From Candidatus Binatia bacterium (GTDB lineage Bacteria; Desulfobacterota; Binatia; UBA9968; JAJDTQ01), in contig OX638375.1 in the NCBI GenBank assembly GCA_951813575.1, forward strand, positions 2,433,042-2,497,041: 64,000 nt of DNA. Reading direction: 5' to 3'. Positions within the stretch are counted from its first letter, which is position 1. The number at the start of each line of letters is the position of its first letter. Made by a program: the position numbers and the translations under genes. Shown in pieces: positions 58,594 through 62,358 of this stretch. Below the pieces are notes generated by a model. That model did not search any database and was not told the origin of the DNA. It worked only from the letters and a program-made list of their open reading frames with translations.

Positions 58594-59493
58594 TCAGCCG
58601 TCCTGCTTCTCGGCGGTCTTGACGCCGTCGAAACCGGCGCGGTCCGCCAGGCTGGCCGGCGTCAACACCCCGGTGTGACGCTGACCCTTGATGATCCACG
58701 TGGGATAGCTGCGGATGCCGGCCGCCAGACACTTGGTGGCGGTCGGGCCGCTGCGTCCCGCGGGACTGCATTCGACGTACGGGATGCGGTGGGCCGACGC
58801 GCCGAAAAGCTCCTTCTGGTGCGCGCACGCGGGACACCAGAACGCCCCGTACATCTGGACGCCGGCCTCTTCCAGGTGGACGGCCAGCCCCTTGATCCAG
58901 GGATCCTCGTTGCCCGACGCCACTACCGTGGCGCCGGAATAGAAGATCAAGTGGACCGCCAGCACACCGACCGCGGCCGCCATGGCGCTCGCGCCGAGCC
59001 AGGGCTTCCATGCCAGGCGCCGGCTGACCTGCGGGATCTGGAACAGCGTGATGACGAAGATGGCCGCGAGCAGCCCCAGCGACGTCAGGCAGTAAGGGCA
59101 GGCGGCCTCCAGCCGAAAGAGGGAGATGGCGGTGAGATACACGCTGTAGGCTACGCCGAACAGCGATACCGCGGCCAGCACCTTCCAGCGCCGGCTCCGG
59201 CGCCTGGTGAAGGCCGCGCCGGCAAGCACGGCGTAGACGAGAAAACCCCACAGCGAAGTCGGCAGGCCCAGGAGCGTGGACCAGCGGCTGTGCAACACGA
59301 TGTCGCAGTCGGCCCCGGCCTCGCAAAAGGCGGCTTTCTCCCCCGACCAGGAGGTTCCGGTCAAATACCCCGCCAGCACCAGACCGATCAGCGCCAACGC
59401 CAGCACTGGCCAGTTCGGACTCGCGGGCGCGGCCGTAGCCGGTTGCTGCTGCCGGGGTCCGCGCCCGCCCTTTTTTCTCGATGCCTTAGCCAT
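58594..59493 (-). CDS. VKOR-family protein fused to a thioredoxin-like domain
   Basis: A 299-residue inner-membrane protein. Four helices form the VKOR domain (about residues 28-160), with the loop Cys pair FCEAGADC and the active-site ACPYCLTS. A fifth helix leads into a periplasmic thioredoxin-like part with AFWCPACAHQ (CxxC). It re-oxidises and carries disulfide formation in the periplasm, replacing DsbA/DsbB. The basic N-terminus (KASRKKGGRGPR) is cytoplasmic. It is the last gene in a set with Sco and the Cox11-like protein on the same strand. Confidence 0.9.
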   Translation of the reverse strand: MAKASRKKGGRGPRQQQPATAAPASPNWPVLALALIGLVLAGYLTGTSWSGEKAAFCEAGADCDIVLHSRWSTLLGLPTSLWGFLVYAVLAGAAFTRRRSRRWKVLAAVSLFGVAYSVYLTAISLFRLEAACPYCLTSLGLLAAIFVITLFQIPQVSRRLAWKPWLGASAMAAAVGVLAVHLIFYSGATVVASGNEDPWIKGLAVHLEEAGVQMYGAFWCPACAHQKELFGASAHRIPYVECSPAGRSGPTATKCLAAGIRSYPTWIIKGQRHTGVLTPASLADRAGFDGVKTAEKQDG

Positions 59494-59581: not shown

Positions 59582-60220
59582 CTACGCCTTCCCCGCCAGC
59601 AGCCGCCGGGCGCTCTCCCGCAGCCTTTCCAGAGCCCGCGGGTCGTTGCTGTCGTAGTAGCCGCGGATCTCGCCGTCACGGTCCACCAGGACGAAGCGGG
59701 TGCTGTGGAACATCACGGGATCGAGGGTGGCGCCGTCCACCGGGGCGGCGCTCAGGCGAAACCCCTCCTGCACGATGCGCCGGATCTCCCGGACCTCGCC
59801 GGTCAGGAACAGCCAGCGTTCCGGATCGGCCCCGTACCGTTCCGCGTACCGGGACAGCAGGGCGGGAGAGTCGTTCTCCGGATCGACGGTAATGGACACG
59901 GAACGCAGGTCGCCGTAGGCCTTCAGGTCCGTTTGAAGCGCGCCCATGGCGCGGCTCTGAAGCGGGCAGGTGTCCTTGCACTGGGTGTAGATGAAGTCAG
60001 CGATCCAGACCCGGCCCCGCAGGTCCCGGGCGGAGACCGCCCGGCCGCTTCGTTCGACCAGGGCGAAGTCCGGCGCCGGCCCGTACCGCGCCAGCCGCTC
60101 CAGAACGGGCTGGCGCGGGGCCGCCGGGGGCGTGCGCATCTGCTGGATGACCAGGCCCACCAGGACCAGGAAAAGGACGGTCCCGACGGTCACCTGGAGC
60201 GCGAAATGGCGTTGCGTCAC
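59582..60220 (-). CDS. Sco1/SenC/PrrC copper chaperone
   Basis: A 212-residue membrane-anchored thioredoxin-fold protein. One N-terminal helix (LQVTVGTVLFLVLVGLVI), then the copper-binding CxxxC in YTQCKDTCPLQ (about residues 83-87) and the His ligand in VMFHSTRFVLVDRDG (about 169). It delivers copper to the CuA site of cytochrome c oxidase. It lies 72 bp after the Cox11-like gene and 88 bp before the VKOR gene. Confidence 0.92.
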   Translation of the reverse strand: MTQRHFALQVTVGTVLFLVLVGLVIQQMRTPPAAPRQPVLERLARYGPAPDFALVERSGRAVSARDLRGRVWIADFIYTQCKDTCPLQSRAMGALQTDLKAYGDLRSVSITVDPENDSPALLSRYAERYGADPERWLFLTGEVREIRRIVQEGFRLSAAPVDGATLDPVMFHSTRFVLVDRDGEIRGYYDSNDPRALERLRESARRLLAGKA

Positions 60221-60292: not shown

Positions 60293-61729
60293 TCAGCCGG
60301 GAGGAATCTTCTGCAGCAGCCTGTCATTTTCGTAAAGCTCGTACCCCTTGATCAACAGCTCGTAACCGCGGCCCGGATGATCGCTCAGGTCCAGCAGTTC
60401 CAGGTCCAGGATCACGACGGTGGTCAGGCCTGCCTTGAGATCGAAATCGAGCCGGATGGGACCCACGGCGTTCTTGACCGGGGCGGGCGCTCCGCTCTTC
60501 CGGAGAATCCCGCGGATCCCGGTGACCTGCAGGTCGACGGCCGCGAAGCGCCGCGGCCGGAGCGAGCCCCGGTAGACCGTTGCCGCGGCCGTGCCGTCCT
60601 TGTACCGGGCCAGGTCCATCCGGCCGAGCTGCGGCGTCAGCTCCAGCCACCCCGGATCGGCGGATCGGAGGCGCGCGTCGGGCGACAGCCGGAGCTTCCC
60701 GAGGCTCAGCTCCACGCCGCTGAAGTCGTCGATGGCGTCGCGGTGGTCCTTGACCCGGACCTCCAGGGTGCCCTCGGCCTGAGCCCGGGCCTCGCCGTCG
60801 CCTTCGGGAAACCGGTCGCTCGGGTAGAACTGGTAGGTGACGTGGAACTCGCCGTTTTCACGCGGCACGTCCCAGTCCACCCGAAACACGAGCGGAAGCT
60901 CCTTCGCCTGGCCCGGCTCCAGGGTTTCCTGCAGAAAGAAGAAGCACTGGATCACGTTGAGGTATTTGGCGGCGGCTTCCTTCGGCCTATCCAAGTGGCG
61001 CGCCTTGCCCGTGACGGTCCGGTCCGAGAGGTTCCGGACCCGATAGGAGGCGTGGAGGGTCTCTCCGGGCCGCGCCAGCACCATCTTCTGGAGCGGCTCG
61101 AAGGCCCAGGGCAGGCCTTCCCGGACCGCGGCGTGGAAGAACACCTTCACCGCCTCGTCCCAGTTCCGGAAGATGCTCCACCGCCCCTCCTCGCGAAGCA
61201 GGTCCAGCGACTCTTCCCCGGTGATGGTGGACAGGCGGCCGGCACGGCTCATTTCGTCGAGGGTCTCGAGGACTTGCCGGCGGTTCTCCGGCGTCAGCCG
61301 GTTGAGCGCATCGGGGTCGAATCCGGCGAAGAGCTTCTGCAACTCGGCGGAATTGGCGTCCGGAAGGCTGATGTCGAAGCGGACCGTGGCGCTGTCGCCC
61401 CGGACGTCGGAGGACAGGGGGCCCACCTCGATCCGCCGGGCCAGAGCGCGGGCGAGGTCCCGGGCGGCGCCGGTGAAGGAAGGGTTCTCGCTCAGGTAGG
61501 CCGCCTCGCTTTTGGCCCGCCGGTCGCGTTGCGACACGTACCGGTAGGCCTCCGCGTAGTCCTGTGTGTACACGGCCTCGAGGTAGCGCGACACCAGGTC
61601 ACGGAAGCGGGCGGTGTCTTCCGCCGCCACGGCCCCGGAGAAACCCACGCAAACGGCAAACGCCATCGCCGCCGCCGCCAAGCCCACCCGGGCGAAAAAA
61701 CGCTTCTTGTTGCTCAACCGGTTCATCAT
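60293..61729 (-). CDS. Secreted protein with central Cox11/CtaG-like domain
   Basis: A 478-residue protein. A signal peptide (ending near AVAAED) is followed by a helical N-domain (about residues 36-180), then a Cox11-like block: LPWAFEPLQKMVLARPGETLHASYRVRNLSD, AAAKYLNVIQCFFFLQETLEPGQ and LPLVFRVDWDVP (about 205-305). In true Cox11 the copper site is CFCF; here it is CFFF, so one copper Cys is lost. The C-terminal about 170 residues, a beta-rich domain (LSLGKLRLSPDARL, VDLQVTGIRGIL, KAGLTTVVILDLELLDL), is unknown. The position beside Sco and VKOR fits oxidase or copper-site assembly. The domain call is mine; I see no named family. Confidence 0.72.
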   Translation of the reverse strand: MMNRLSNKKRFFARVGLAAAAMAFAVCVGFSGAVAAEDTARFRDLVSRYLEAVYTQDYAEAYRYVSQRDRRAKSEAAYLSENPSFTGAARDLARALARRIEVGPLSSDVRGDSATVRFDISLPDANSAELQKLFAGFDPDALNRLTPENRRQVLETLDEMSRAGRLSTITGEESLDLLREEGRWSIFRNWDEAVKVFFHAAVREGLPWAFEPLQKMVLARPGETLHASYRVRNLSDRTVTGKARHLDRPKEAAAKYLNVIQCFFFLQETLEPGQAKELPLVFRVDWDVPRENGEFHVTYQFYPSDRFPEGDGEARAQAEGTLEVRVKDHRDAIDDFSGVELSLGKLRLSPDARLRSADPGWLELTPQLGRMDLARYKDGTAAATVYRGSLRPRRFAAVDLQVTGIRGILRKSGAPAPVKNAVGPIRLDFDLKAGLTTVVILDLELLDLSDHPGRGYELLIKGYELYENDRLLQKIPPG

Positions 61730-61859: not shown

Positions 61860-62164
61860 CGTTCCTCTTCTCCGCCGTTTCCACCCCTTCTCCGTCATTC
61901 CGCCGCTCCTCGGTCGTTCCGCCGCTCCTCGGTCATTCCGCCCCTCCTCCGTCATTCCGTCCCTCCTCCGTCATTCCGTCCCTCCTCCGTCATTCCGTCC
62001 CTCCTGCGCGATTCCTGCCCCCTCCTGCGCGGTTTCCACCCCTCCTGCGCCGTTCCCGCCCCTCCGTCATTCCCGCGAAAGCGGGAATCCAGGGGCGGTG
62101 GTGGGGTGCTACAGCGGCGTTTCCTGCCGTACCTCTCCTGGATTCCCGCTTTCGCGGGAATGAC
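61860..62164. repeat. Palindrome-derived repeat array
   Basis: This stretch is filled with CGTCATTCC units, some in a 21-bp tandem array (CTCCTCCGTCATTCCGTCCCT, about 61945-62000), and ends with two full family 1 elements in opposite orientation (62066-62092 and 62138-62164). It is the left half of a 648-bp intergenic region (61730-62377), the longest in the window. No gene is seen. Confidence 0.88.
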
Positions 62165-62186
62165 GGAAGGGGTGCGGGAATGACGA

Positions 62187-62358
62187 AGGACGGTGGGGAG
62201 GAAGGACGGTGGGGAGGAAGGACGGTGGGGAGGAAGGACGGTGGGGAGGAAGGACGGTGGGGAGGAAGGACGGTGAGGAGGAAGGACGGTGAGGAGGAAG
62301 GACGGTGGGAAGGAACGACGGTGGGAAGGAACGACGGTGGGAAGGAACGACGGTGAGG
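62187..62358. repeat. 16-bp tandem repeat array
   Basis: Units of AGGACGGTGGGGAGGA repeat about ten times with drift (GTGAGG and GTGGGAAGGAAC variants toward the end). It follows the palindrome array and stops 20 bp before the ABC permease stop. It is strongly purine-rich on one strand, which could form unusual structures, and is likely length-variable. Confidence 0.88.

Follow-up and report, generated by a model that had tools for sequence, protein, structure and literature searches.

The way in which Cox11 hands copper on to the buried CuB site has yet to be settled, as has the reason why the transfer of a single ion needs two coppers and a pair of cysteines (PMC6696091). The window analyzed here, a stretch of 64,000 nucleotides from a Candidatus Binatia bacterium, carries a gene for a Cox11-like protein in which the CFCF copper motif reads CFFF. 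Can such a protein still deliver copper? The initial annotation had placed at 60293-61729 an ORF with the core motifs of Cox11 and had noted that the second cysteine of the copper motif is a phenylalanine; both observations were borne out (the ORF contains LPWAF, GETLHASY, AAAKYLNVIQCFFF and LEPGQ). The features of the locus are listed in Table 1.

Table 1. Window positions of the Cox11-fusion gene, its parts and key codons, and the two downstream genes
Feature	Position	Strand	Basis
478-aa probably exported protein, NTF2-like + Cox11 Ig-like + DUF4382-type	60293..61729	-	ORF, ATG start
Signal-peptide-like N-terminus, residues 1-36, AVAA/ED	61622..61729	-	By eye from sequence
NTF2-like domain, residues 34-190	61160..61630	-	Structural alignment of model (VIA-align 2)
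Cox11 Ig-like domain, residues 193-305	60815..61153	-	PF04442 and 1so9 structural match
His245 codon	60995..60997	-	Alignment of the order's copies with canonical Cox11
Cys262 codon TGC	60944..60946	-	Invariant in all copies
Phe264 codon TTC	60938..60940	-	TGC or TGT (Cys) in 8/8 congeners
DUF4382-type C-terminal domain, residues 317-478	60293..60781	-	43-48% identity to separate ORFs
SCO1/SenC protein, CxxxC and downstream His, 72 bases downstream	59582..60220	-	PF02630 E 1e-28, motifs
VKOR with C-terminal CPAC segment, 88 bases further downstream	58594..59493	-	PF07884 E 9e-27, motifs

The AlphaFold2 model of the protein (mean pLDDT 91.6) is divided into three parts, in agreement with the earlier description of one domain before the Cox11 part and another after it. 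The central part matched the Pfam profile CtaG_Cox11 (PF04442) over residues 189-302 with 85 bits against a cut-off of 25 (E 7e-24), and by sequence it matched the Cox11 of Sinorhizobium meliloti (PDB 1so9; E 1e-22), values far beyond chance. For residues 193-305 of the model, the best solved match was again apoCox11 1so9 (Z 10.8, rmsd 2.5, 110 aligned residues, 41% identity), with its Ig-like fold. The initial annotation had made its assignment depend on a profile or structural match, and both were found. Judged by its profile match and modeled fold, the protein belongs to the Cox11 superfamily, and that it may work like Cox11 is the leading reading. Residues 34-190 of the model adopt the NTF2-like cone fold and resemble the CaMKII hub, the N-domain of PBP2a/PBP5 and ketosteroid-isomerase-like chains (Z 8-10.5, VIA-align 2); a Pfam profile search of this part gave no family match. 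The C-terminal ~160 residues are related to separate proteins of other genera (43-48% identity), one of which matched DUF4382 (PF14321; 1e-8, score 35.6 against a cut-off of 25). The window protein itself had no DUF4382 match in the Pfam profile search, and no credible match for this domain was found in the PDB by sequence. These two outer domains might serve oligomerization or docking. The protein is probably exported, judging by its hydrophobic N-terminus with an AVAA site, which looked to us, by eye, like the cleavable signal described earlier; AlphaFold2 drew one long helix (residues 6-54) over this segment, and the NTF2-like domain separates it from the Ig domain.

CFFF differs from CFCF by one base: a G>T exchange, private to the window genome among nine congeners, has turned TGC into TTC at residue 264. 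The other eight encode the same fused protein, 71-76% identical, and all of them keep CFCF. Because it stems from one altered base and occurs in only one genome out of the nine, the lost cysteine cannot alone define a non-copper family. The earlier view of a diverged Cox11 relative within a larger exported one-cysteine protein holds, but the missing cysteine is not a trait of the group to which this protein belongs; the genuine single-cysteine proteins are paralogues from other genera of the order. Within the Cox11 domain, dN/dS was 0.14-0.17 between the window protein and its congeners and 0.13-0.25 among the congeners; given this match, the gene is not decaying. Neither of the other two domains is more constrained than this one (dN 0.085-0.12 for the window protein). 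At sites invariant in the others, 15 of 263 carried private changes on the window branch, compared with 6-12 in the other lone lineages of the set. Pseudogene decay was ruled out by the normal dN/dS and by private changes being about as frequent as in congeners.

The data at hand are compatible with a fixed change, a base error and a rare allele, with the single 4.2 Mb contig favoring good sequence; among the loci found, there was no second genome of the same species in which to read codon 264. We consider it unlikely that CFFF reflects a mistake in base calling or assembly, or a rare allele, in a population whose protein is CFCF and works with the cysteine pair. Such an origin would be compatible with one G>T at a site where all eight congeners, as well as an unfused relative from genome G018, have Cys, in a gene that is otherwise under normal constraint. 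However, the assembly consists of one contig of 4.21 Mb and was thus presumably built from long reads at good coverage, the neighboring Sco and VKOR and the oxidase have kept their catalytic Cys and His residues intact, and the window branch shows the other private changes at conserved sites counted above (15/263).

The comparison with canonical Cox11 (15 proteins, from plasmids) revealed larger departures, which the initial annotation had not noticed: the protein has no essential lysine, no juxtamembrane cysteine, and a conserved histidine. The lysine three residues before the first Cys (position 259) is present in 15/15 canonical proteins and in none of the order's copies, with or without CFCF; the window protein has Val259. 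A juxtamembrane Cys ~91-95 residues before CFCF, found in 13/15 canonical proteins as extracted, is absent from all copies of the order, and the only cysteines of the window protein are Cys27, within the signal, and Cys262. Both CFCF cysteines occur in all canonical proteins and in the eight congeners, whereas the window protein lacks the second. Position 245 is His in 38/38 examined copies of the order and F, Y or P in the canonical proteins, while Cys262, the first Cys of CFCF, is invariant in all copies. In the AlphaFold2 model, His245 and Cys262 lie on strands 239-248 and 257-262, respectively. The cysteine pair, the lysine and the juxtamembrane cysteine have all been reported as essential in yeast and bacterial Cox11; in the malarial protein, replacement of the second Cys by Ala left copper binding close to wild type in vitro but significantly reduced it in vivo (PMC9172173).

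In summary terms of family, the window protein shares with Cox11/CtaG (PF04442; S. meliloti 1so9/1sp0) the Ig-like domain, the first Cys of CFCF, Pro249, Tyr299 and LEPG. It differs in the NTF2-like domain inserted between anchor or signal and Ig domain, in the extra DUF4382 domain, in the loss of Lys259, the juxtamembrane Cys and the second Cys, and in the gain of His245. Its score with the NCBIfam Cox11 equivalog PRK05089 was 96.3 bits, below the cut-off of 162. Since it failed on three residue-level features and on this cut-off, it was not filed as Cox11 proper. That it is an ordinary Cox11/CtaG with a harmless extension would agree with a score far above the Pfam cut-off and with a tree in which the order's CFCF members group with canonical Cox11 (97% support), but we regard this as very improbable: the equivalog shortfall (96 vs 162 bits) and the position outside the oxidase operon oppose it, and the missing defining residues (the lysine, the juxtamembrane Cys and the second Cys) weaken it.

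A Cox11-domain match was found in 25 of the 35 genomes of the order. The motif CFCF is carried by genus g1 and by the unfused protein of G018; 15 genomes of other genera encode mostly ~300-aa proteins with an NTF2-like and a Cox11 domain, often two or three in tandem. In all 28 paralogues examined in these 15 genomes, the Ig domain contains a single Cys, which is Cys262 every time, and His245 is present in each of them; the Cox11 domain has only six invariant residues, and these two are among them. The model of one such relative also had 1so9 as its best match (Z 10.9, rmsd 2.5, 113 aligned residues). The single-Cys copies come together in the tree as one clade (100%); the monophyly of the order's CFCF copies has 82% support. 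The single-Cys paralogues (loci L040-L059) share with the window protein the NTF2-then-Cox11 arrangement, Cys262, His245 and the Sco and VKOR neighbors, but they form a separate clade, show no trace of CFCF (CAL/CGF), and often occur in tandem, with DUF4382 unfused; the DUF4382 protein is a separate gene in most of these 15 genomes and is fused in the window genus. Among 395 genomes of the phylum, the NTF2-Cox11 architecture turned up in this order only; the few matches elsewhere covered just the NTF2-like half. The many relatives with a single Cys and the conserved His suggest that the loss caused by C264F is survivable.

Five of the loci (L040, L046, L049, L051 and L057) contain two or three diverged single-Cys genes that fall in separate subclades, indicating old duplications kept side by side. 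The gene sets of related genera comprise Sco, VKOR, CopD, a TlpA-like protein, a second Sco protein and exported methyltransferases. Proteins combining a signal or anchor with a SAM-methyltransferase recur beside the Cox11-like genes (L042:7208-7882, L050:5853-6458, L040:7364-8598 and others); an exported methyltransferase is odd, because one would not expect SAM in the periplasm.

The window genome encodes a single heme-copper oxidase, with the CuB histidines in subunit I and the CuA ligands in subunit II. No cytochrome bd was found in the nine congeners, so this oxidase is probably needed. The Cox11-fusion gene lies outside the oxidase operon, 1.35 Mb away, and the additional bona fide cox11 that the initial annotation had proposed to look for did not appear: no other Cox11 domain was found in the 4.21 Mb contig. 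The organism thus probably depends on one oxidase, and its only Cox11 is without a residue that has been described as essential in yeast and bacteria (PMC9172173). This can be read in two ways. Cys262, perhaps together with His245, may be enough for copper transfer, which is what the single-Cys paralogues in genomes with an oxidase suggest; or CuB may be loaded by another route.

According to the second reading, the protein would deliver no copper in this species; CuB would be loaded by other means, for example Caa3_CtaG, and the gene would be kept because of its two outer domains, NTF2-like and DUF4382, or because its product serves Sco and VKOR as a thiol or docking partner. The missing essential residues are consistent with this. 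Caa3_CtaG (PF09678, Bacillus-type CtaG) is, like Cox11, an assembly factor of heme-copper oxidases, although it belongs to an unrelated membrane family; it is encoded once, separately, in the window genome and also in 6/8 congeners, and CtaG of B. subtilis is needed for active caa3 oxidase (PMC13344008). In addition, no Cox11-domain match was obtained in eight genomes of the order that do have a heme-copper oxidase, so loading of CuB apparently does not require Cox11. Nevertheless, the Cox11 domain is no less constrained than the other two and retains Cys262 and His245, and congeners with CFCF have Caa3_CtaG just the same, so it is no compensation peculiar to the window species. We find this reading rather doubtful. 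Two nearly complete genomes, G011 and G013, combine a heme-copper oxidase with single-Cys copies only, without Caa3_CtaG or PCuAC. Separately, G010 (same order, 100% complete) has heme-copper oxidase genes and no match for the Cox11 domain, Caa3_CtaG or PCuAC, so in this genome CuB must be loaded by something else. PCuAC was also considered as a helper and discarded, as none was found in the genus. A copper monooxygenase as client (AMO/PmoA) had no match in the order; the control genomes gave none either, so this absence is not proven.

Given that the Cox11 domain is strongly constrained and that Cys262 and His245 are never lost, we prefer, with modest confidence, copper transfer through the former, perhaps with the latter. 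Our leading but tentative proposal, which we stop short of calling probable, is that the protein assists the sole oxidase as a divergent periplasmic accessory that would deliver copper by means of Cys262 and perhaps His245. In its favor we counted the Cox11 profile and fold, the lack of another Cox11 domain beside a sole oxidase, the downstream Sco and VKOR genes, purifying selection, the conservation of Cys262 and His245, the single-Cys-only oxidase genomes G011 and G013, and the malarial Cys-to-Ala result. Against it stand the order-wide lack of the lysine and the juxtamembrane Cys, although both are reported as essential (PMC9172173), the eight oxidase genomes without a Cox11 match, the presence of Caa3_CtaG, and the distance to the oxidase operon. 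Cys262 would hold Cu(I), and His245, on the preceding strand, would be its partner or part of the site; the C264F protein would still work, since this branch would not be strictly reliant on the cysteine pair. A bolder and unlikely version is that the order holds a Cox11 branch in which a Cys-His site replaces Cys-x-Cys, and that the window protein, as the sole Cox11 of a sole oxidase, has been caught in this switch or recently through it, with the His acquired first.

The order offers a natural series, from Cys pair plus His, to Cys plus His in the sole Cox11 beside one oxidase, to tandem single-Cys paralogues, which lets the requirement for the pair be tested with natural proteins. It also illustrates that annotating Cox11 by profile alone hides the loss of function-bearing residues. 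Plant HCC2, a Sco without the copper cysteines, is likewise a copper-chaperone homologue retained after loss of metal-binding residues (PMC6696091), but its fold is that of Sco (thioredoxin), not of Cox11.

The Sco and VKOR neighbors reported by the initial annotation were recovered, in that order downstream, with their Cys and His motifs intact, and the Cox11-fusion gene may be co-transcribed. Promoter and terminator scans around it gave nothing above shuffled sequences. Between this gene and a metal ABC permease gene lie two tandem arrays, one at 61879-62073 (a 19-mer, ~10 copies) and the other at 62185-62355 (the 16-mer GAAGGACGGTGGGGAG, 10.7 copies, 97% matches), which are separated by an inverted pair around TGGATTCCCGCTTTCGCGGGAATGA.
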